A stretch of 64,000 bases of DNA from Isoetes taiwanensis (taxonomy: Eukaryota; Streptophyta; Lycopodiopsida; Isoetales; Isoetaceae), in assembly GCA_021234155.1 (NCBI GenBank), contig JAJEKV010000340.1, positions 1 to 64,000 on the forward strand, in the 5' to 3' direction. This document shows positions 16,577-60,392 of the stretch, piece by piece (positions within the stretch are counted from its first letter, which is position 1; each line of letters begins with the position of its first letter). The position numbers were made by a program, and so were the translations under genes. Under the pieces are notes generated by a model. That model was given only the letters and a program-made list of their open reading frames with translations. It ran no database searches and was not told where the DNA came from.

Positions 16577-17125
16577 CATGAATGACTCGTGTCACCTCCT
16601 CTGCAGAGGTCCTCCACTGAAATTCCTCCTTCACCTCAGGTTCAAGATTACGATGTCTCCGATTAAAGTTGAAAATACTACCAAGAAAGATAAATTGTGT
16701 AAATGGCTCGAGAAAGTGGATATGCCTTACTTTAAAGAGTTCCGAATGGATTTTTATTGCCCATTGAGACCAATAGGTCTATGGGACAAACAATAGTGCA
16801 ATCATAGTCACATAATCATACCTTCTTTTTAATTGAAAACTTAAAGACCGCCATGAATGACTCTGTGTCACCTCATCTGCCGAGCGGTCCTCCACCTGAA
16901 ATTCCTCCTTCACCTCCGGTTCAAGATTCTGATGTCTTCGTTAAAGTTGAATATACTACCAAGAAAGATAGATTGTGTAAATGGCTCGAGAAAGTGGATA
17001 TGTCTTACTTTAAAGAGTTCCGGAATGGATTTTTATTGCCCATTGAGACCAATAGGTCTATGGGACAAACAATAGTGCAATCATAGTCACATAATCATAC
17101 CTTCTTTTTAATTGAAAACTTAAAG
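16577..17125 (+). repeat. Tandem duplication of a ~275 bp unit carrying a small ORF
   Basis: Copy 1 is 16577-16851 and copy 2 is 16852-17125. Each starts CATGAATGACTC and ends AATTGAAAACTTAAAGA. Copy 2 encodes an intact 77-residue frame (16853-17086) with a proline-rich start (PHLPSGPPPEIPPSPPVQ) and a charged end (KWLEKVDMSYFKEF). Copy 1 has the same peptide split by indels (16500-16796 keeps the second half). The product is not recognised. Its place ~500 bp after a primer-binding-like site suggests a gag-region relic, but that is inference. Confidence 0.7.
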
Positions 17126-18771
17126 ATTGCATTGACTATTTCAATGTACCACAGATCTATATGGTGGAAAGCCCAAGAAACAATTTATGAAAATATCTTG
17201 TGGAAGAATTTAAACTCTTTGGAGCCAATTTTATGTGGGTTAATCAAAATCCAATTTTCAGCTACTTATGTGACTTCAATTAGTCGTACAACTTGTCTTT
17301 GCATAATAAATTTATGAAGTCACTCGTATCCAAGATCTATATATCCGTTAGCCCTTGCATGCATATCCGTTAGATCTTGTGTACATCCATTAGACCATCA
17401 TATCACTCATAGATGCCTCGCATGTTGATAAATGAGCCATGAGCCATGAACATCTCATGTATTTGATATTAGCAAGATTCAAGTTATGAAAAGGAGTATG
17501 AAGAACTAAAGCTTTGGTATGAAAGAAATTTTCTAGAAGGAAATTGATTTATGTCATTAAATCTCTTCACTCTTTTGTAGTAGCAAGAAGGTTCAGCCTT
17601 TGCAAATGATAATTATAGATGTCATGTTTGGTCAAGGAATTATGCAGATAAATCCAGAATTAGTGGTTTATATTAAAGTGGTAGTAATAAAAGGAGTAGC
17701 TAAAGTAGTCTAGATCTTACGTATTGAAGCTTGAGCACAGAAGCACCTAAGTTATTTTTCGAAGCCCTGTTACGCTTGAAGAGACATTCGCATACGAAGT
17801 TTGAGTGGAATTTTGGTATTGACGCCAAAGTACCTTGAAGTTCCATTTGGACTTGGTATATGCAGATATTGCCAAGCATGCGCTTCATCAGGTACCAATA
17901 TGCCTGATTTGTATTATATTTGGTTAGTGTCAGCTTGCAATTCTTGTTTTCGATGTGGAGAGAGACTTTTATGCCTAGTATATAGGAGCATTCAATAAGA
18001 TTTAAGTGGATGAAAGTGTTGAGTTTATTCCTATAGTAGTTCTATTTCAGTGATGCATCATTATATTTTCTTTTCTATTGAAGAAAATAGAAAAAAAAAG
18101 GAAAGAAACTGATATTCAAAGAAACGCCATTGCTCTTTGGCTAAAATGTAGCTCGTAGCATTAAGAGGTAACGTACCTTCAAAATCTTTTGTTGGCAATG
18201 CTTCTTCGAGCAAGTTGATGATGAGAAGGCCATGCAACATAGTTAAGCAAAATTGAAACGCTACGAATATGCATGGGCTCTTGGGCATGTAAAGAGGCCA
18301 GCAAACCAAGAATGTTGTTACACACATTGAAGGTAGTCCATTGTTGTACATGGTACATGATGGGGAGAGTGGGGTTATGAGATCGGTGGAAGAAGACTCT
18401 TTGGCAAGGGAAGAAGGTGAACGGGAGGAAGGCCCATCTATTTTGGCTAATTTGTCAAAAGTAGAATTTTTTTTAGCAACTTCGTATTTGAAAATAACTG
18501 GTAGCAATGCAATTAGATGCAATGGGAAAGTTGTCTACATATCCGTTAGCCCTCACAATTGTAAGGGTGAAATCACACTATCGGTGACCAAAATCAATTA
18601 CGTGGCACAATTAGGCATGCGTTTGGCACTGAAAATTTTGTGCCGCTCCATCCATATCACATTATCAGCGTCCAAACCAAAGAAATTTGTGCCACGCAAG
18701 CAAGAACAGAGACCTAAACAATCGGCCATCTTGCTTCTATCATCCAGCCGAAACCTATCGATTTATGAGAA
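17126..18771. other. Intergenic DNA, unrecognised overlapping ORFs
   Basis: Frames at 18061-18522 (minus, 153 codons) and 18341-18838 (plus, 165 codons) overlap for about 180 bp. Neither has a recognisable domain. The minus frame has a Ser/Pro-rich segment (SSRSPSSLAKESSSTDLITP). One of them could be a real fragment; I cannot choose. TCTACATATCCGTTAGCCCT at about 18533 echoes ATCTATATATCCGTTAGCCCT at about 17334. Confidence 0.3.
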
Positions 18772-21854: not shown

Positions 21855-22709
21855 TCAGTTTGGCTGTAGATTAATCTTCACTCTCTTCCTTGTAGATGGC
21901 ACTAAAACAGATTAATAATCATTACTCGGAATATTTACCCCATGGAACAACATCTAGTCTTTGGCGCAAGTGATTTGGCATCTCCATTTTCGAATCCTGT
22001 AAGCTTCTGGCTTCCACGGCTAAATTTCTCTTCCTTTTAGAATCAGACGATATAATCTTTCTGCTTGCTACAGTATAGATCTCTCTTACAACAGATTGAA
22101 AAGCCTCTGCAACATTTGTGGCTTCCAAAGCAGATGTCTCGACAAAAAACATCCCTTGTGACTGGGCCAGATCTGTAGCTTCTTCCGTCGATACCTCTCT
22201 CAGTTGTTCTAGGTCGCTCTTATTTCCAACTAACATAGTCACTAAGCTTGCATCCGAGTACACTACACAAAAGAAAGCACTTAGGTCTAAGCCGCGTATG
22301 TGAATAAGCCAACAGATTTGCTAAATCTACCTACAATGCAGATAGGAAACAAGAAGCATACAATATGTTATAAGAAAGCGGACTCACTACGAAGCTCTTC
22401 AAGCCAGCGTTCCACATTGTCAAAGGTCTGTCTGCGAGTAATATCATAGACCACCATAGCTCCCATGGCCCCCCTGTAATAAGCGGAAGTAACAGCCCTG
22501 AATCGCTCCTGGCCAGCAGTATCCCATATCTGAGCTTTTACTTCTTTTCCATCAATCTCCATGCTCTGTGTCTGGAATTCTACCCCGATTGTTGCCTTTG
22601 AATTCAAATGAAACTCATTTCTCGAGTACCTGGACAGCAGATTCGACTTTCCCACTGCCGAGTCGCCTATAAGCACCACTTTGAAGAGATAATCATCGCC
22701 CTGATCCAT
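21855..22709 (-). CDS. RABA/Rab11-class small GTPase, three-exon model
   Basis: A small GTPase of the plant RABA (Rab11) group, which acts in trans-Golgi/recycling-endosome to plasma-membrane traffic. Exon 1 is 22709-22388 (ATG at 22709), exon 2 is 22262-21939 and possible exon 3 is 21901-21855. Introns begin gtgagt and gtaaat and end tgtgtag and ctgttttag. Motifs: G1 GDSAVGKS (~15-22), switch I/G2 TIGVEF (~40), G3 WDTAGQERF, the RABA signature [22 protein letters not shown]4 NKSDL and G5 ETSALE. The sequence LREVSTEE...ETSAL is closest, from memory, to the RABA5 clade. Oddity: neither the spliced end ([11 protein letters not shown]) nor read-through of exon 2 to 21922 (PWGKYSE) has the usual C-terminal double cysteine for geranylgeranylation. 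The GTPase call is very sure; the C-terminus is not. Confidence 0.9.
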
Positions 22710-23835
22710 TGCAGGCCCTTTCCTACAATAGGTAGAAGAAGCAGGGCCAGAGTAAAGTCCGATTCAAGAAATCCATATTGTATTGAATTTTCACGTCCGA
22801 TACCGCGATTTCAGACGTGTTAATGCCAGGTAGCTTTTCTTATACATAGCTTAAATCTGGCTTTATTTTATTTTTTTCCCCACCGTTGTAGGCTATGTTG
22901 GGAACTTGAAGGCTTATTGGTCGACAGTGGCAACGTTATTTTTATACAAATTATAAGAATTTCAGATGGAGGAAACCGCAACAGAAACCCCCGAGCCAAT
23001 GTGGTTACGCCATGTAAACGTCCGCAAGGCAGAATTTTTTGCTACGTGGCAAAAATATTTGGTTCTTTTTTGCTGCATCGCCGGACTTGCATTAGATTTC
23101 TTGGCACCAATGAGAGAACTAATGGGTGCCAAATCAGACCTGCCCAGACAAATCAACAAATCGTTGGATTTATGCCCTGCCCAGAAGGTCTTGTTGATTG
23201 GCAGTTGTGTTGCCCCTTTTTTTTCCTTATGAGCATCGTTGCCTGAGCAAATCATATCGTCGTAGCCCTGCAGACCAAGAAAGGGAAAATGTTGCTCAGA
23301 TCCGACCATGTTTTGGCTTTGGCTGCGCGTTGTTTCTGTGGCTACTCGTTGGAACAGAACCAGTATGGCAGAGCTATGGAAAATATAAAGTACAGAGGTT
23401 TAAACACAAGCCGACCTCCATAGTCAGTGAATGGAAATCAGAAAACCTTCTGGAGGTTTCTTGGCAGAGCTCTGGTGGCGCCGCCTGAGCTACCTCCACA
23501 TTTACCCCTTTCCTTTACTGATGTTGGTGGCCAAGTGGATAGTCCCTTGTGCCGAAGGCTAAGACTGTGCCAAAGTGAAAGGCCTTGTACCTTCGCTTGT
23601 ATCTTTGTATTGTCAAGTGAACTTCTAGAGTTTTGGTCTAGGTTAGTTGGTGCTTTGTTTTCTGAGTCTTTCAAATTATTTTGTGAGTCCAAAATGGCTG
23701 GTAGGCATGAGCGATGTTGGAAATTGCTATTTAAGAGCCATTTGCACATTATCAACTGCATTTGTAGTGTATTTGCATTTGTAGTGTGTTTAGAATTAAG
23801 GGGAGTGCCTGTAGTGGCAATAATAATAATAATAA
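22710..23835. other. Rab upstream region, promoter side
   Basis: This holds the 5' UTR and promoter of the minus-strand Rab gene, plus unassigned sequence. Overlapping ORFs at 22917-23488 and 23427-23885 run on both strands and lack motifs. A (AAT)n run at 23818-23835 abuts the Helitron end at 23836. Confidence 0.4.
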
Positions 23836-31461: not shown

Positions 31462-34249
31462 TTTTTAAGTAATGCATATGCTTAACAGATGGGGCATAGG
31501 AAAAGCACAATTATTATATGCTATAGGCAGGAAAACTTGTAGCAGAAGAACATGTGATATGGGAGAAGCCATAAGAAAAGGACAAAGACCCGGTTTTTCT
31601 AAAGACTTGGGAAAAGAAAACTGACAAATGTAGGCGAATAAGGAAATTGAAATTGCTTTTTAGGGTTCTTGAACCAAATTAGGGTTCTCTCTAATTACGA
31701 TCTTTGTGGCGGTGCTTTGGATATTTGCCGAGAACAAATGCATGTCTTGATTTCTTGAAATACAGGTAAGAATTACAATTTGGATTTCTCGCATGCAACA
31801 GATTGCAACTTTCTTAAGGGCCTATTCAAACCAAAAACACGGTATTAGGTACATTGTCCATTGATTCGCATAAATGACATGAATCTGGCTCTCCTGGACC
31901 TAGTTTCGCCTATGTGCATGCTTGCTTTTGAGCGCATCCCAATGCTATAGGGTTTTATGTGAGTTCGGTTGCATAATGAATGCATCTCCCGCCTTGTTCA
32001 TGTGGAGATGGTATTTGATCTGTCAGGCATATGATAGAAGGAAAGGAGACCCGGATATGGACACTAGAAAGAGAACTAGATATGAGAAGAATGGGGATTA
32101 AAGGGAGAAGAAGATGCTATGCAAATTTCACAATCTTTTGCAAAAGAATGGTGAAACAACACATTGGAGCTATCCTCGAGCGAAAAATCATTCAGGTTTA
32201 TGCTTTGAATTTATGATTTGCTTAAACTTTGAGTTTCTGCTATGCTTGGATAATAAGTTATGGTTTGTACTTGATTAAACACAGAAATAAGAAAGTAGAA
32301 AGTGGATTACCATAGTAATACATGGCCTTTATCTTTTTTGCCTTAAGATTTCTGATAATTGATCCATCACGAAGTCATACAATAAAGGGAATAAGTTTTA
32401 AGATCTGATGGCTTTTAAGGCGTGTTTGTTGGAAACTGTGTAAGAATCTAAGTCTGCTAATTGGACCAGACTCTTAATGATTAACTATAACTCCCTTAGG
32501 AGAGCAGAGCTTATTCTTTGTGTCCGTTAGTAGATATTAGTTTACATTTCGGCTGCTTTTCCAGATTTGTATGAGTGCTATAATAAGATCTGATGGTCTC
32601 TCTACCATATTAATTGACTATTTGGGATCTACTTGCTAGATATGCTTTGTTGTAACCTGTACAGAATATTAAATGTGTTGTTATCTTAGTATGTTAGATA
32701 CATAAATCATTGCTAATTCTTATGGAAACTCAAGATCATGTGATGTTTACGGGTCTCTAAGGGATATATACTAACATATTTATGATCCTTAACTTACTGG
32801 CTGCATGCAAGTAGGTTATACCAGGAACTAGGTTTAAATGTGTTGCTAAATGTTAACGTCTGGTGACCTTAGAAATAAGAATATGGAACCTGACCGCTCC
32901 GCCTTATAAAACGGGGATATCAATGGAGCCGCCACTATTATATTTCTGTTCTAACCTCTCTGTTGTGCTTTGACATGCTATTTGCTATGGTACATCTTTT
33001 ATAAACATGGTGAAGGGATAACCCAAGAAACCTAATGCTTACTGTCGGTCTTTGTCATTATTACCCTTCTTAGGCTAATTTTTGGCTGGTTTATCGCAGC
33101 TAACAAGGTTTCTTGCTCCATGCTTTGATGTATCTATTTGTCTAAGCCGATGGTTCAAGCAATACAAGACTTCAAGTAAGATTATTCCATTGGGAAATCA
33201 GAGATCATATTTGAAACTCATAACTATGTATTACATTATAGGCTTGTCGTACCATGTTATTGGGATGTTTGTATAAGTTTCAATTTGGAAAAACTCATAG
33301 TATTCATGAGGAATATAGTTGTATTAATACTGTAATTGGAATATAGTTTTTTTCTTCTGAAAAATATGGTATAATTACAAAGTAATAATGTTATGTCCTT
33401 ATCCTGGCCTAGGAAAATTGTTCCTGTCAATTTTCTAGGGTCTAAAAGGCAGACTTGGTATTTCGGTCGGAAATATCAAGGATGGAAGTCTGAAACAGAT
33501 TTGAGGGTTTTTTTTTTTTTTTTTTTTTTGTTATTTCCGAACCAGCTTTTGAAAACCCATTGTAATGGTTAAGATGCTCATAATGGTTTTAAAAGGCTAC
33601 GTTAATAATAAATCTCAACCCTCCATTGGATAGTGAAACCGCAGCCATTGGATCTAGGGCTGGGTCCAACACTTACAGCATAACATTATAATATAGGAGG
33701 ATTGGCTTTAAGTATTCCTTATGAGTGGAATTGTGGATGTAAATGGAATTTGTGAGATGTAATAACCATTGGCTTCAAATTATGTCATTATTCCATCAAT
33801 ATTATTATGTAGAATAAGGCTTCGTGTTTTGCGGAGCGGCACTGCCAGAGTCCAAATTTCAAATCGTGGCACAGCAAAACAGGGGCACAACAATCCGTCT
33901 CCGATCTCTGGCTTCAATCCGTCTCCGATCTCTGGCTTCAATCTGTCTTCGATCAACACGACCTTTCTAGAAGTTGCTACTGCATGCATCCACTTTAACA
34001 GGTTTCTTTATTGTAGCTAAGGATCTTTCTTATGTAAGCCAGCCAGCGCCCTGTCTACTGCAAATCTTTTGACTCAGCCAGCCCGCGCCCTGTCTGCTGC
34101 GAATCTTCCGACTCAAACTGAGTTCTGTTTCCTTCACCTTTTTGAGATAAAATCATCTGCTTCCTCATACGACTAATGCACCACTTAGCGAATCGATGCA
34201 CCACTGAGCGATAGAATATGGAAATTTGAAGCCAATGGTTATTACGTAA
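31462..34249. other. Intergenic DNA between Helitron 2 and the NLR
   Basis: AT-rich. An AGGGTTCTCTCTAATTACG leader-like stretch at about 31680 is followed by a donor-like gtaaga at 31767, but no coding frame follows. A T23 run lies at about 33508-33530. CCAGCTTTTGAAAACC..GGTTAAGA(T/C)GCTCATAA at 33541-33590 is a direct repeat of 31014-31062 inside Helitron 2. Small tandem repeats sit at 33893-33955 (25 bp unit TCCGTCTCCGATCTCTGGCT, 2.5 copies) and 34042-34116 (~38 bp unit, GCCCTGTCT-CTGC-AATCTT, two copies). No gene is supported. Confidence 0.45.
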
Positions 34250-34409
34250 GGTAATTCCCCCTCTCGAAGATTTTCTCGAGGGCATATCCCTCGGCGGCAT
34301 TGCCAGACTCGGTAGCGCACTCGCAGCTTGTCGCTCGTGCGCCACCTCGTCTAGCAGAGCCGCCTCAGGATATTCCCTCGAGGAAAGCTTCTCGAGGGGG
34401 GGAATTACC
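34250..34409. mobile_element. 160 bp MITE-like inverted-repeat element
   Basis: The left arm GGTAATTCCCCCTCTCGA, then AGATTTTCTCGAGGGCATATCC, is mirrored by the right arm GGATATTCCCTCGAGG, then AAAGCTTCTCGAGGGGGGGAATTACC. The arms are ~43 bp with a few mismatches, around a ~75 bp core. Flanking trinucleotides are TAA (left) and TAG (right), close to a Harbinger/Tourist-type TWA duplication but not exact. It ends about 430 bp upstream of the first NLR exon and could affect that promoter. Confidence 0.6.
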
Positions 34410-34838
34410 TAGTACTTATGTGTAATTATGTCATGTTGTAGATTCCGGTGACTTTGTGATTCAAACAAATCCCGCCCTCCTAAGAAAAATCCAAATCCAG
34501 GTTTTTAGAGAAGGCAAAAATCTTAGAAGGCTGAATGTTTTCGCACCGGGGAGGAGATTATATATAGTGCAAATATTAATCCTGCGACATGATGATGTGG
34601 CACTTTGACTAGACGCAACGGCGGTTCACGCTGAGGCAACATCGCAAAGGACATGCAAGATGGACGCACCTTCAATGTTGGGATCTGCTTAATCGTTGAT
34701 GTTGTATGTATGCCCATAACGTTTCCTCACAACAGCGAGAATCTGGATATTACTTCAGGAATGGATTTGTCTTGAATGTAGAGATTATGTGGCTCTAAAA
34801 CCCTTCTGGGTATATGGAATTTGACTCTTCCCTTAACA
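34410..34838 (+). promoter_or_regulatory. Proximal upstream region of the NLR gene
   Basis: This spans from the MITE-like element to the proposed NLR start codon. ATTATATATAGTGC at 34558-34571 is a TATA-like candidate. AAACCCTTCTGGGTATATGG lies close to the start. No transcription start can be fixed from sequence alone. Confidence 0.35.
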
Positions 34839-37800
34839 ATGTATGATAATATTTTCTTTGGAGACGGGATAACTTCATTTGAATCGGCCATTCACAGCTC
34901 TGGCCTACAGTTCAGAGCATTGAATGAAGTAAGCAATCTAACTAATACTTTTTTCTGTTTCTCTGTTGAGATTGAGGTAGTCGTTATGCTTTTCTTCAGG
35001 CTCTGCAAGTTTTTGACAGCAAGCATTCTCAGAAACTTACCAAAACACTGTCTGAAGACATTCGTAGAAAATGTGGATGCATATCATGGTTAGAGTTATC
35101 CTCGAAACTGGCTTTGCTAATAAATGAACAAGCTGGTTTAGCAGATAGTAAATATAGTCAGTCGCAATGGGAGGAAGTAAAGAACCGTTCACTTGTTCTG
35201 ACTGGAAGACTCCGAGAAGTTCAAAGGAAACTGCCAGGCGATAATAAAATATTCAAAAATGCTTTTTGTGCTTTACTTCATATCTATGCCTTTCTTCATG
35301 GCATCCTATGGGGTCCAGCATGCTGTAGGTAATGAACGTGCAGGTCTATTTCCTCTTGTTCTTCCCAGACTATAGATGAACCTCCCCAGTTTTATAAGTC
35401 TAGCAAACAGTGGTCATATAACAAAGCTTATGTTCCTTTGCAGATGCTGTATGGCAGCAGAATGGTGGATTTTGGGATTGCCCTCTTCCCGGTTCAAGCA
35501 GACATAACCTAAACAGAGTGCTTTTACATATGCAGCTTCTTCTACTGTACTTGAGCTCAGAAGCGCTAAACCCGAGTGCAGTTCCTGATCCCTGTTTACC
35601 ATCTCCTGGATCACTCTCACGTCCAGAATCCGTGGACGCACTATATTGTCTGTCACTTTCTGCAGTGGTGACAACAACAATGTTTGACACTGCAGATGGT
35701 CCTGAATATCCAAGTCAGGCTCGACCATCACAAAACAAAGTGGCTATAAGCCAACAAACAAGTAAATCTGATGCCCCCACTCCAAAGCATTCAGAAGTCG
35801 CTATAAAAACAACGAATGGCGAGCACCAATTCAGTTTATCTCTTACTTCAGGGCCTGTTAAGCTGGAATTTCAAGATAAGGAAACTGTATCTTTAAATGG
35901 AGAGCAGGAGTTGATTGTATCTGTTACTTCTGGCCCTCTGAAGTTGGAAATCCAGGACAGTAAAACAGAGACTACTCTTGTACTTCCTCATTCACAACCT
36001 GGTTCTCAATCAGAAATAGTTATGGGAGGTGAGACAGTTATTGTAACATTACCAGACACACCAACGAGTGAAATTGTGAGTACAGACGATGCTGGGAGTC
36101 TCTTAGACATACCTGACCTCTCTGTTGCAACTAAATCAGATGCCAATATATCAGAGAACAAAGCATTTGCACTTACTTCCTCGAGCATTCCATTGGCAAT
36201 ATTCCCAATGGGGTTTGAAGGGCAGAGTCTTGCAATTATACCTTATGCAGAGAAGAAATTTTGTTTGGCAATTTTGCCAACAACATCAGATGTTGCTTCA
36301 GAAGGAAAGAAACCTTGTCTGGCAATTATGCCCCATGAAGATACAAAACACTGTTTTGGTGTATTGCCAGATCTCCACGAGAATACATCTGTTTCAAATT
36401 CTACGCAGTCCTTGGCAATTATCCCATACCAATCTCAAAATAAGTGCATAGCGGTGTTCCCAAACATAGAAGATATCACTTTAGCAGGAGAATCTAACAC
36501 AATAAAACAGAACAAAATGTCCCTAAATCCAACATATATTCTGCACGAGCTACAACATCAAAATATATATGATATAAAACCTGATCACGACATGGTTTGT
36601 TTAGTTCAAAATACACTTTGTCTGACTGCTACTTCTTCAGAAGGATCTGCTTCAAGAATGGCAAACCAAAGCCTAGAAATTATTCCTTATGATGAAAAAA
36701 TGCATTGTTTAGCTATTATACCAACAAAACCAGATCTTCCTCTAAGAGAACAGACACATTGTCTGGCAATTGTTCCATATGATGCAAAGATGCATTGTCT
36801 GGCCATTATTCCGGCAAAATCCAATAAGCCTGATCAACCAGAATTTCTTGCAGTTGTCCCCGCAATTTCAAATGTCACCATATGTGAAAACAAGTCTTTA
36901 TTAACAATTCGTCCCATCACGCCAGATACTGCTCTTCTGGAACCGAAAAAATGCTTGGCCATTATTCCTTACAAATTAAAAGATATGTCTGAACAGCAAT
37001 CATGTCTGGTAGTTGTCCCGACTACATTAGATGCTGCTGTGGAAGGTGAAAGCAAGTGTATTGCCATTATTCCAGATCTTTCTATAGCAGAAGGTGGGCT
37101 GGAACTCATAAACACCACATCAGATGTTGCTTTGGAAGATGGTACACAATGCATTGCAGTTATCCCCACATCACTGCGCCCACTAGATACCGGTAGCCAA
37201 TGTATTGCAGTTATTCCGACTGCACCTTGTGCACCAGAAGAGCAGAGGAGTATTCTGGCAATTGTTCCAGGTGCAGGAGAGGTCATGAGAGATAGAAAAA
37301 AGCTAACAAGTGCAGAAGTATCAGGCCAAGTCAAACAAGAGGCTTCCCAGGGAGTGATAAATATTCTAAACAATAAAGAGAAAGAGATACTTATATCAAT
37401 AACAGGAGATGAAGCAACCGAAAGAAGCAGCCAGATAGCTGAAACTATGGAGGATGTCATTCCAGCAGAACACAAGGAAAAGAGGCAGCAAAGCCTCGTT
37501 ATAGAGTCAGAAAGAGAAGAAAAGTGCCATACTGAACTAGAAAAGCAGCCAGTTGTGTCCGGGAGAGAAGATGGTGGATCTAATTATTCTGCTTCTCATT
37601 TTGTTGCTCAACCAGAAATCATGGAGCTTGTTAAGGTAGGACTAAAAGAACGCGCGATGAGAATGCTTGAATTCATTCATCAAGAGGGTGTAATTGCAAT
37701 TGCTGTTATTGGAGAAAACGGTTTGGGTAAAACATCAATTCTCAGGGAGGTCATCTCGACTTTAGCTGTAAAAGAAGATTATGCTGTAGCTTTCGGTGAA

Positions 37801-40800
37801 GTGGGAACATTTTCTTCCAATGAATGCCTTACAGAATTTCTATCAATGATGACTCGTCAGCTAGGTGGTGATGGACGAGAGGTTTTTCGCAGTTTGTATG
37901 AAGGAAGAGAGGCATTGAAGAAACAGCTTCACCTGCTAAAGATGCAGAAAAAACGTGCTTGCATAGCATTAGATAGTGTTTTGTCAGGCACCACTTTACA
38001 AAAACTTATTCCTGAATGTTTCAGCAGTATTCTTCCACATGGAAGTTGTATACTGGTTACTTCTCCATCTGATTCTATACCTGAAATGCTGGACAATCTT
38101 TGCAGAGTACCTGAGGAGAGTGACAATCCTGTCAAGTATTTGTTCTGGGCATATACACCAACGTATATGCGACCATCAGAGGCAAAGGAAATGCTGATGT
38201 GCCATGCATCAGTGAGGAAAGTTCAGCTACTCCCAGAGCATGAAGAGCTTGTTGATGACCTCATACCACTTTGTGGCGGCCTGCCTTTAGTGTTGCAAAT
38301 AATAGGATCATATTTTGCTCGTTTCTCCAGGCATAAAAGAGAAGAATGGTGGACAATCACAAATCGCATGCAAATAGCTGAAGAATATCCTGTCAGAGGA
38401 GATGAAATATGCTCAAAGCTAAAAGTAGTGGTTGACGGGTTAGAAGACTCTTTGCAAGAAACTTTTCTAGACATTGTTGTCTTTTTTAAAGGCTTTGACT
38501 GGAAGAAGGCAGAGCGCAGCTTGGGTAAACATCATATGGCTAGCCTAGCAGACCATGCATTAATCTGTATGAGGACCAAAGATTTGTATTGCCATTCCTG
38601 CACTCATGGACATCCTGAACGCATTCCTACATGCCGCCAGTCAAAACGATTGAGTACAGGTATTATAGAAGTCCATGATCTTGTGTCTTCTGTTGGTGTT
38701 CAAATTGCCCAGGAGAGTTATGTTGTCTCAGTTGGTGAAGATAAACTACCGGTCCGTTTGCTTGAAAGAGCAGTAAGTTTATCTATTCCCTCAATTTCTC
38801 CCTTTTTTTTCCTTCTAAAATTCTGATATTGTTCTTGCTCTCAGAATTTGGCTTCCGTTAAAGCCATTGCATTGAAAAAATGTGGCGAGCCCTTCCCCCT
38901 CAACATGCTTGACAAAATGAAAAAACTGCATTTTTTACTAATTGAAGGGACGCACCTTGTTGGTCATTGTCACAGAACCCCCCATAATCTTCGCTACTTG
39001 GTTTGGCACCCTTCTGATCAAGGAAAGGAAAGGGCATCCATGCCCTTCAAGTTGAAAAAAATGAACAAACTTTTGGTGGCCCATTTGTATAACATACAGT
39101 CTGACTTCAGCGACATTGAAGTAAGCTATAAAACCGGCTTCCGCTTATCTTGGTAATTACGTAAAAAGACAATAACTTGAATGAAATGTGTAATGCAGTT
39201 TCCTCCAAGGCTTACGGAGCTGGAGTTGCATAACTGCGTGAAGATGGTAGAGTTTCCAAAATCGTTTGGACATTTGAAGCTGCTTCAAAGCCTCCATCTA
39301 CATAATTGCCACAGCCTTAGAGCACTTCCAGAGTCCATTAGCAGGCTCACAAAGTTGCAAGAGCTGGTCTTAAGTGTGTGTACAAATCTTATGGAACTGC
39401 CACAGACAATTGGGAATCTCCATGCTCTTGAATATATTGACCTTGCAGCGTGCTTCAAACTAACAGAACTTCCAAAGAGCATTGGTGATTTGAAGTCCTT
39501 GAAAGTTTTAGATCTGACAGGATGTGAGAGCCTAATAGAGCTGCCGGCTGAGGTTGGCAATCTATGCAAGCTACAGGAACTTGTCCTTGCGGGGTGCGGT
39601 TCACTGAGAGAGCTTCCACCAAAGATTGGTTCTCTCACCGATTTAAGAACTCTGGACTTATCCCATTGTGAGCAGTTAACAAGCCTCCCAATGCAGATTG
39701 GAAACCTAGTCAGCCTGAAGGAAATGAATCTAATGTGGTGTGAGAAGCTGTCAGCTTTACCCCCCCAAATTGGATTCCTTCACTCGTTGCAGAATTTAGA
39801 ACTCTCAGATTGTAGGAATCTTCCTGAAGTGCCAGCCACAATTGGTATTATGAAGTCTCTACAACAAGTCCATCTTCGGGGGTGCACAAATTTGCACTTT
39901 GTGCCTCCAGAAATAGGGAATTTGCTTAAATTGACATCTTTGGACATGCGAGGCTGCATCAACCTATTGTCATTACCGTTGGAGGTAGCTGCATTGTATA
40001 ATCTCTCATATTTAGGCCTTGAATGCCTTTCTGCAAGCCATCTTTGGCCACATCTCGACAAGCTTACATTGTTGAGAAAGTTGGATATTGATGATAAAAC
40101 TGGCATATGTACAACTGTCCCAATAGAGATATGGTCACTTTCTTGTCTAGAAAAGCTCGCTCTAAGAGGCTTTAAAAATGTTGATCATCTGGGAAATAGT
40201 GAATGGAAGCTTTCTGCTTTAACATCATTGTGGTTGGAAGGCTTTGCTAGCCTGAAAAGCCTACCACCGGGGATTTCTCAATTGAAGTCATTGAAGCTTC
40301 TTGTTCTATCTGAATTTGAAAGCCTGATAGAGTTTCCTGCTGGAATAGAAAAACTGGAAAACTTGGAGAGGTTAAGCTTGAGATGCAAGAGTGTAAGAAC
40401 ATTGCCTGCCAATCTGTTTTCAGGCTTGAAAATGGTCCGCTCTTTAAGCTTGGTAGAATGCACTGCATTGACAGAGCTTTCTGTGGAGAAAGGAAGCTTG
40501 CCTTTACTTGAAACTCTTGATGTGGTTTCATGCAAAAGTCTAAAGATGCTTCCCCCAGAACTTGGAAACATGGCTGCACTTCAACATCTTAATTGTAGAG
40601 AATGCACCAGCCTATCGACTTTACCAATGGAGATTGGACAGCTTCAAAATCTGCAGTCTATATGCCTTCACCAATGCTCTAGTCTCAGCAGACTTCCCAT
40701 GGAGATTGGTAGCTTGTCCGCCTTGGTACGGCTCGATTTGAGAAAATGCACCAATTTGACAGATTTGCCTCCGACAATTGGGAGACTGTCAAGCTTAAAG

Positions 40801-41361
40801 TATCTTCAGCTTTGTGGAAACGTGAAACTAAAGAAGCTTCCTACAGAAATTGAACACCTAGAAAACTTAATTGAGCTGAATCTGGAAGGATGCACAGCCC
40901 TTACAGTATTACCCTCAGAAATTGGCAGACTCTCTAAGCTTGAAAACTTAGGATTAGATTCCTGCATTGGACTTGTTTACCTCCCTCCTGAAATTGGTAG
41001 GCTTCAGTCCTTGAAACGCCTCTCTTTGGCCAGATGTTCCAACCTGCAGCTGCTTCCGGCAGAGATTGGCACACTTTTGAAGCTGAAACTGCTTCGGCTG
41101 GATGGTTGCATTAACCTCATACACTTACCACCTCAACTTGGGAGTCTACAAAATCTATTAAACCTAGGGTTGGAGGATTGCAGAGCTCTGATGGCATTAC
41201 CTCAGGAAATATGCGCATTGCAAAACTTGGAGCTCCTTGATCTTCGGGGGTGCCTCTTTTCAGATGATGATGTGCAACACCATATGACGCAACAGGGATG
41301 CACTGTTGTGCGGAACGATCTCGATTGGGAAGGTTTTGAAGAGGTTTGGCTTTATTATTGA
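34839..41361 (+). CDS. NB-ARC/LRR immune receptor with a LAIIP-repeat N-terminal region
   Basis: Intracellular NLR-type receptor, probably in pathogen sensing. Exons by frame and splice motifs: 34839-34928, 35000-35312, 35444-38772, 38845-39120, 39199-41361; about 2056 residues. Residues 1-250 are unrecognised: no TIR, RPW8 or kinase motif. TSGP(V/L)KLE(F/I)QD occurs twice near 264-307. 19 LAIIP-type repeats span ~383-745. NB-ARC: P-loop GENGLGKTS (~891), kinase-2 ACIALDSV, RNBS-B GSCILVTS, GLPL CGGLPLVL, TNL-like FLDIVVFFKG and VHDL in place of MHDL. Residues 1337-2025 are ~27 LRRs of 24 residues (LPxxIGxLxxLxxLxLxxCxxL). The tail ends EGFEEVWLYY. Donors gtaagc, gtaagt and gtaagc are good. 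The exon 2 donor (GG-gtccag) is weak but is the only one that keeps frame into exon 3. The start codon is uncertain. Confidence 0.88.
36187..37275 (+). repeat. Coding repeat array: 19 x (C/S)-(L/I)-A-(I/V)-(I/V)-P within the NLR
   Basis: Within NLR exon 3 the encoded peptide repeats a short hydrophobic strand ending in Pro: LAIFP, LAIIP, CLAILP, CLAIMP, CFGVLP, LAIIP, CIAVFP, LEIIP, CLAIIP, CLAIVP, CLAIIP, LAVVP, LTIRP, CLAIIP, CLVVVP, CIAIIP, CIAVIP, CIAVIP, LAIVP. Spacing alternates roughly between 11-12 and 18-22 residues, with one longer gap between copies 7 and 8 (about 36495-36660). The linkers are polar and acidic. Most copies have Cys or Ser before the strand. DNA copies have diverged while the core is kept, which suggests selection on the peptide. 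Confidence 0.9.
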
Positions 41362-51513: not shown

Positions 51514-51554
51514 CCCATATAGTTACAGAATCTGTTAAATTTTTGTAGCTGGAA

Positions 51555-52325
51555 GTGTCTCAGAGAAAAATCAAGAGCAGAATTCCAAGCAAAAGACACC
51601 TCCAAGACATGCTGAAGCAGAAGTTTCCAGCCCTGCACCAAGACATCTTTGAAGGAAGTTTCGATGCGACTAAGACATCTTTGAAGCGCGAAGTTTCGAT
51701 ACCGCACCAACTCGTCCATGAGAAGACTACAAGGTTAAGCCCAATCCTGCTTGTTTTTTACTACAATGGAGTTTTGGGTAGAAGCTATGACAAGAATCAA
51801 AAAATACCCACTGCCAAAGAAGAGGGTGTTACCATGATCCAACTTAACAGATCCAAGATTGCAGTAACTAAACCAGGCTGGGCCGAGTTCTTAGATTGGT
51901 GCAGTCAGAATTTTCATATAGCACTTTGGTCTAGCCTGCAGGCTCAAAACATGAGAGTGATAGTTAAGGGAGCATTGATGAAATACAAGGACAAATTCCA
52001 GTTCATATGGACTCAGGATCAGTGTACACGCACAAATTTCTACGACGCATATCCAGGTTTCACAAAAGAGAACGTGCTTCTCATTGATGACAGCAGATAC
52101 AAAGGGTACCTCAATGAGCCAAACACCATGATCTGTCCAAACAGCTGGAGCCCTGGCAGAGTAGATGGCAATTTCCTCATGAATGATCTAAAGGATTGGC
52201 TTCAGAGGTTGCTGAAGGCAGAGAATGTGCAAAGTTATGTCGAAAGCAACAAAATGTTGAATATGTTTGATACTGAGAGTCAAATTTGTATTAATATGAT
52301 GAAAAAACATAGAACTAAAGCCTAG
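51555..52325 (+). CDS. FCP1/SCP-like HAD domain protein, catalytically altered
   Basis: The frame is 256 codons. Residues ~65-215 follow the NLI/FCP1-type phosphatase fold of the HAD superfamily. Motif I is LLVFYYNGVL, where plant relatives have LLVLDxNG(L/V)L. The catalytic Asp is Tyr, so phosphatase activity is unlikely. Next come KPGWAEFLDWCSQNFHIALW (cf. RPGLxEFL...AVWSS), FQFIWTQDQCT, and motif IV LLIDDS, retained with RYKGYLNEPNTMI. Members normally dephosphorylate protein Ser/Thr, for example on the RNA polymerase II CTD. This copy may act as a binding domain or be a relic inside a transposon. It lies directly upstream of the Ulp1-like segment on the same strand. The fold call is good; whether it is expressed is unknown. 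Confidence 0.65.
   Translation: MSQRKIKSRIPSKRHLQDMLKQKFPALHQDIFEGSFDATKTSLKREVSIPHQLVHEKTTRLSPILLVFYYNGVLGRSYDKNQKIPTAKEEGVTMIQLNRSKIAVTKPGWAEFLDWCSQNFHIALWSSLQAQNMRVIVKGALMKYKDKFQFIWTQDQCTRTNFYDAYPGFTKENVLLIDDSRYKGYLNEPNTMICPNSWSPGRVDGNFLMNDLKDWLQRLLKAENVQSYVESNKMLNMFDTESQICINMMKKHRTKA

Positions 52326-59480: not shown

Positions 59481-60392
<912 letters not shown>

Follow-up and report, generated by a model that had tools for sequence, protein, structure and literature searches.

A five-exon gene was modelled on the forward strand at positions 34839-41361 of the 64-kb window, the whole stretch of DNA that was analysed, and encodes 2060 residues without internal stops. As modelled, the gene joins an NB-ARC domain to leucine-rich repeats (LRRs) and is, on these domains, a plant NLR; no second NLR was seen within the 64-kb window. 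Exon 1 (34839-34928) provides an ATG start and 30 amino acids, and exon 2 (35000-35324) encodes a proline-poor N-terminal region that, judged by eye, is possibly helical. Both upstream exons come from splice-site inspection and frame continuity and have weak codon scores. Exon 1 is weakly supported because of its codon score of -0.06; exon 2, whose donor GTAGGT was picked for frame continuity, scores +0.20, +0.09, +0.27 and -0.26 in order along the exon. Exon 3 (35444-38772, 3329 nt) is one open frame comprising a pre-array region, an array of short repeats, a post-array linker and the NB-ARC, and places the first repeat after about 388 modelled residues. The splice model continues with exon 4 (38845-39120), which holds the NB-ARC/LRR junction, and exon 5 (39199-41361), which carries the LRRs (Pfam LRR_14) up to the stop codon.

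The array and the NB-ARC share one stop-free forward-strand frame of 1134 codons (35422-38826), by which the erroneous fusion of a second gene is ruled out at the DNA level. The original prediction had placed the array, P-loop, GLPL motif and LRRs in a single uninterrupted exon of 3.3 kb; one exon of this size does span the first three, but the LRRs lie beyond two modelled introns, through which they are linked to the NB-ARC. Frame 0 of exon 3 has a positive codon score in 27 of 28 scoring windows, the negative one (at 36406) lying inside the array. It outscores both other frames in 25 windows, ties in one and is beaten in two. These scores were trained on the NB-ARC and LRRs, so that the training set shares sequence with the NB-ARC windows, and the final scoring window extends 33 bases beyond modelled exon 3. 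GC content by codon position is alike in the array (0.51/0.40/0.28) and the NB-ARC (0.55/0.38/0.33). The array remains without a stop over 359 codons, compared with a longest open frame of 69 (median) and 163 (maximum) in 1000 nucleotide shuffles. A weak donor/acceptor pair could define an in-frame intron of 1059 nt (36029-37087), which would remove 16 of the 19 repeat copies by hand count.

The NB-ARC region (37591-38772, forward strand) was recognised by Pfam PF00931 (E 2.1e-10; 37.1 and 40.7 bits, cut-off 23.5) and contains what we take to be the P-loop GENGLGKTS, the GLPL motif CGGLPL, the stretch FLDIVVFF and a VHD motif. The LRRs were matched by LRR_14 at E 2.9e-69 on an open reading frame at 39181-41361. 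Among solved chains, the nearest to the NB-ARC is Roq1 (E 9e-8), presumably a TIR-NLR, with 114 of 394 residues aligned in the C-terminal part; the alignment covers query residues 192-305 of 394, so the P-loop falls outside it. The second match, on the P-loop side, is the bacterial ABC-F protein Lmo0919 (0.0013), followed by At5g66900 (0.0036), ADR2 (0.005) and RPP13-like 4 (0.0051), and more weakly by NRC4 (0.0072), ADR1 (0.019) and MLA13 (0.14).

Ahead of the NB-ARC, pattern counting delimited an array of 19 cores (36193-37269, forward strand), each of five hydrophobic residues ending in proline, with the consensus LAIIP. The first ten begin at 36193, 36229, 36265, 36319, 36355, 36412, 36448, 36673, 36709 and 36763, and the other nine at 36799, 36847, 36901, 36955, 37006, 37060, 37153, 37204 and 37255. 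Position 1 is Leu in 14 copies, Ile in four and Phe in one; Ala occupies position 2 in 15 copies; at position 3 there is Ile in 13 and Val in six; and position 4 is hydrophobic in 18, with Arg in the remaining copy. Proline closes all 19 cores, and the preceding residue is Cys in 12, Ser in three and another in four, which bears out the predicted series of 19 short, proline-ended hydrophobic repeats standing mostly after Cys or Ser (15/19). Residue shuffles of the array region gave a mean of 0.20 cores and a maximum of 3 (n=5000), and those of the whole of exon 3 a mean of 0.48 and a maximum of 6 (n=2000), against 19 observed in each case; the pattern used was defined after the copies were known. 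This margin leaves no room for a chance origin of the 19 copies.

The cores are regularly spaced for the most part. Their 18 intervals measure 12 residues in six cases and 16-19 in ten, with one of 31 and one of 75; a 12-residue spacing had been correctly foreseen, but the second class, put at about 20 residues, is instead 16-19 and is joined by the two long intervals. By autocorrelation and alignment, the first half of the array (36220-36834) follows a 30-residue double register (12+18) with the 75-residue interval inside it, and by autocorrelation the second half (36862-37269) follows a register of 17-18 residues with the 31-residue interval. Hydrophobicity autocorrelation peaks at a lag of 30-31 residues for the first half and of 17-18 for the second. 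In the first half, each of the five cores trailed by Tyr or His is succeeded by another after 12 residues, which points to a double unit of 30 residues; a 12-residue step is also seen after the first core, which has Met behind it, and the sole Tyr-trailed core of the second half has a step of 17. The linkers are polar, rich in T, S, E, K and D, and contain L at 8% as well. The repeat alignment comprises five hand-chosen fragments, two of them nested within others. A six-frame survey of the 64-kb window found no second cluster of the core motif, only scattered single matches, and tblastn (E<=0.01) found no paralogue or second copy of the array there. Upstream of the array, at 35830-35952, two strand-like stretches of the form TSGP-[VL]-KLE were seen by eye at a distance of 27 residues from each other; they may be an older, related unit.

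The array is old, with its fourfold sites near saturation: differences at these sites reach 0.72 for the 19 Pro codons and 0.54 for 15 Ala codons. A recent tandem expansion was ruled out, as Tandem Repeats Finder did not report the array (its only row in 35400-38900 is 22 bases long with a period of 10) and the five double units have diverged to 49-68% DNA identity across their 10 pairs. When copies were compared with one another, the core showed a pN of 0.24 against a pS of 0.61, a core pN that is biased downwards because the copies were selected by their core, while in the linkers pN (0.62-0.67) approached pS (0.66-0.71). A neutral simulation with a star tree and equal base frequencies, run at fourfold differences of 0.55-0.71, left 1.6-10% of cores surviving; the core is kept at 19 of about 22-24 register positions, as counted by eye. 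Decayed copies were also recognised by eye: the 31-residue interval holds one, the 75-residue interval two to four. The core has therefore been retained beyond neutral expectation while the linkers drift, in agreement with the earlier claim of a conserved core amid drifting linkers and DNA. This selection is read from copies within one gene only, since no orthologue or paralogue was found. The confinement of 16 of the 18 intervals to 12 and 16-19 residues, together with the periodic hydrophobicity, favours a structural constraint, an argument weakened by the fact that duplicated units also share lengths by descent.

Searches for relatives placed the array outside the domain libraries. Pfam returned only sub-threshold matches (E 0.036 and 0.075; 14.7 and 13.3 bits, cut-off 27), the best NCBIfam match stood at E 0.21 with nothing above cut-off, and PDB sequences gave no match at E<=10; the repeat profile had one chance-level match to the PDB (E 2.4). 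An array foreign to the known NLR N-termini had been anticipated, and indeed none of the libraries searched (Pfam, NCBIfam and PDB sequences) matched it above cut-off. The flanking pieces gave sub-threshold Pfam matches only, that of the pre-array piece being Laminin_G_2 (E 0.017). The modelled N-terminus (230 amino acids) matched no Pfam family and no PDB sequence at E<=10, and Pfam recognised no TIR, CC, RPW8, kinase or hydrolase N-terminal domain in the modelled exons, which may hold a divergent four-helix N-terminal domain. Two scans each of viral and prokaryote contig collections confirmed no relative of the array, and tblastn against phages gave one chance-level match (E 7); empty scans are expected because the gene is a plant one, and they are uninformative on plants. 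By title or opening of the abstract, none of the open-licence literature matches listed described an NLR with such an array, and among the matches listed for the exact core motif there was no related paper.

Structure prediction with AlphaFold2 gave the array alone a mean pLDDT of 30.7, and 13 of the 14 strands in this low-confidence model overlap a core by hand count. A second model, covering 57 residues with four cores and supplied with five aligned repeat fragments, reached a mean pLDDT of 50.7, with strands of at least three residues at two of the four cores. Both models are below the confidence needed to support any fold, including the β-solenoid or aggregation-like strands suggested at first.

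In our reading, this gene encodes a plant NLR whose NB-ARC is preceded by an unrecognised β-strand array, putatively multivalent and maintained by selection. Switches of the NLR family oligomerise, and such a switch is expected here because the NB-ARC and LRRs are recognisable. Our tentative proposal, which could well prove wrong, is that the array acts as a multivalent β-strand platform gathered by NB-ARC oligomerisation. The array, about 360 residues with linkers of two main length classes, stands between the N-terminal region and the NB-ARC switch, and each core would serve for docking as a β-strand. While the receptor rests, these strands would be held apart or paired as local hairpins, with the proline marking the end of each strand and preventing runaway growth of a sheet. 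Perception of a ligand by the LRRs would lead the NB-ARC to oligomerise and so gather the arrays of all protomers, which could then pair, among themselves or with a partner, by β-strand addition, making the array a multivalent assembly platform for an immune complex. That proline closes every core favours strands obliged to stop over strands free to extend, and the two spacing classes argue, not strongly, against a string of independent short motifs. Against the platform stand the lack of a confident AlphaFold2 fold and the two of 18 intervals (31 and 75 residues) that break the register.

The array could instead be an integrated bait, mimicking the part of a host protein that is bound or cut by a pathogen effector, so that its disturbance triggers the NLR. 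Integrated domains occur in plant NLRs, and the accessible part of one survey puts them at about 4% of NLRs in non-flowering plants (PMC11218826); the receptor described here likewise carries an extra segment on a canonical NB-ARC-LRR body, and the position beside the switch and the repeated, probably exposed motif would suit a bait. Receptors with integrated domains differ in that the segment here has no library domain match above cut-off, and a bait should resemble some host protein, whereas the Pfam matches of the array are sub-threshold, a weak counterpoint that draws on a library search only. We consider this reading possible but on balance doubtful. A passive spacer or decaying tandem repeat with no role of its own would agree with freely evolving linkers of polar composition, with the missing confident fold and with the few copies that, by eye, have decayed. 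It is nevertheless unlikely, since core retention far exceeds the neutral simulation and the 359 array codons stay open well past the shuffle maximum of 163.

Two further readings take the core itself as a known kind of short motif. If each core were a SUMO-interacting motif in a flexible linker, the array would bind polySUMO. The strict form [VIL]-x-[VIL]-[VIL] is found in 12 of 19 cores, and the array region holds 14 matches to it compared with a shuffle mean of 4.1 and maximum of 10 (n=500). The available text of PMC12751080 describes a four-residue core rich in Val, Leu or Ile, to which acidic or phosphorylatable residues alongside lend help. The array as a whole has an acidic excess (41 D/E, 25 K/R), and D, E, S or T occurs within five residues before the core in 18 copies and after it in all 19. 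However, at least two acidic neighbours accompany only seven of the 12 strict-form cores and five of the 12 are net negative, and the near-invariant Ala and strict Pro do not figure in the motif definition as given in that text, which makes SUMO binding improbable. There is similarly a slim chance that the cores are amyloid-type signalling motifs like those of fungal and bacterial NLRs, which would template a partner effector bearing the same motif. Fungal NLRs carry amyloid signalling motifs at the N-terminus according to the accessible passages of PMC9815663 and PMC7889193, and both those of the HET-s, PP and sigma types, which adopt β-structure, and the tandem hydrophobic, strand-like motifs of the array precede the switch. 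The fungal cases, however, are described in the available literature passages as having one to three copies, against 19 here, with the partner effector encoded next door; the 64-kb window contains no second motif cluster that would mark a neighbouring partner gene, though one may lie elsewhere in the genome, every core ends in proline, and the array follows its long modelled leader instead of being N-terminal. That the oligomerising switch of a class of plant NLRs sets off a multivalent, proline-ended β-strand array, of a kind the available plant NLR passages do not describe, and that this array then serves for signalling as a polymerising or amyloid-like platform, strikes us as decidedly unlikely; if true, plants too would have strand-templated NLR signalling.

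Returning to the multivalent platform, the receptor that would carry it can be set beside other plant immune proteins. The fern and bryophyte 'CC-like' NLRs (OG5, OG11 and AF6) are described in the accessible part of PMC12512272 as often having N-termini of low AlphaFold confidence, sometimes with a disordered tail; their NB-ARC is placed there near that of the TIR, hydrolase and kinase NLRs. Our receptor resembles them in its NB-ARC-LRR body and in an NB-ARC nearest, among solved chains, to Roq1, and differs in its strand-repeat array, a feature that the same part of PMC12512272 does not describe for them; compared by description only, it might belong with the fern 'CC-like' NLRs. The RPW8/HR proteins, for which the available text of PMC6684095 reports tandem repeats (21 amino acids in RPW8.1, 14 in HR4) that affect NLR activation, are also plant immune proteins with repeats. 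As far as that text goes, however, their repeats are predicted to be alpha-helical, have another sequence and lie C-terminally in a protein separate from the NLR. With Roq1 and other solved plant NLRs the receptor shares a C-terminal LRR region and, for Roq1, the aligned C-terminal part of the NB-ARC, but a long array-bearing region stands in place of a recognised N-terminal domain.

The N-terminal module of an NLR determines its mode of signalling. An array of 19 putative strand motifs that is old, kept by selection and without a match in the libraries searched would represent an unrecognised module added to plant NLRs, and it would offer a concrete protein for testing whether plant immunity makes use of assembly through strands, of SUMO reading or of repeat baits.

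The remainder of the 64-kb window contains other genes and repeats. Just upstream of the NLR lie two MITE-like inverted-repeat elements (33759-34245 and 34249-34410), with arms of 23 nt that are perfect and of 19 nt that are 95% complementary, respectively. A Ras/Rab-type GTPase gene, presumably a Rab, occupies 21925-22763 on the reverse strand and is split into two or more pieces (PF00071, E 1.5e-41 and 1.8e-16). On the forward strand, 51549-52322 encodes an NLI-interacting-factor-like phosphatase (PF03031, E 2e-9, profile positions 36-159 of 160) whose domain start looks altered by eye. A direct duplication of 279 nt, 94% matching, is found at 16577-17126, and long runs of CT/CA dinucleotides extend over 59888-60316.
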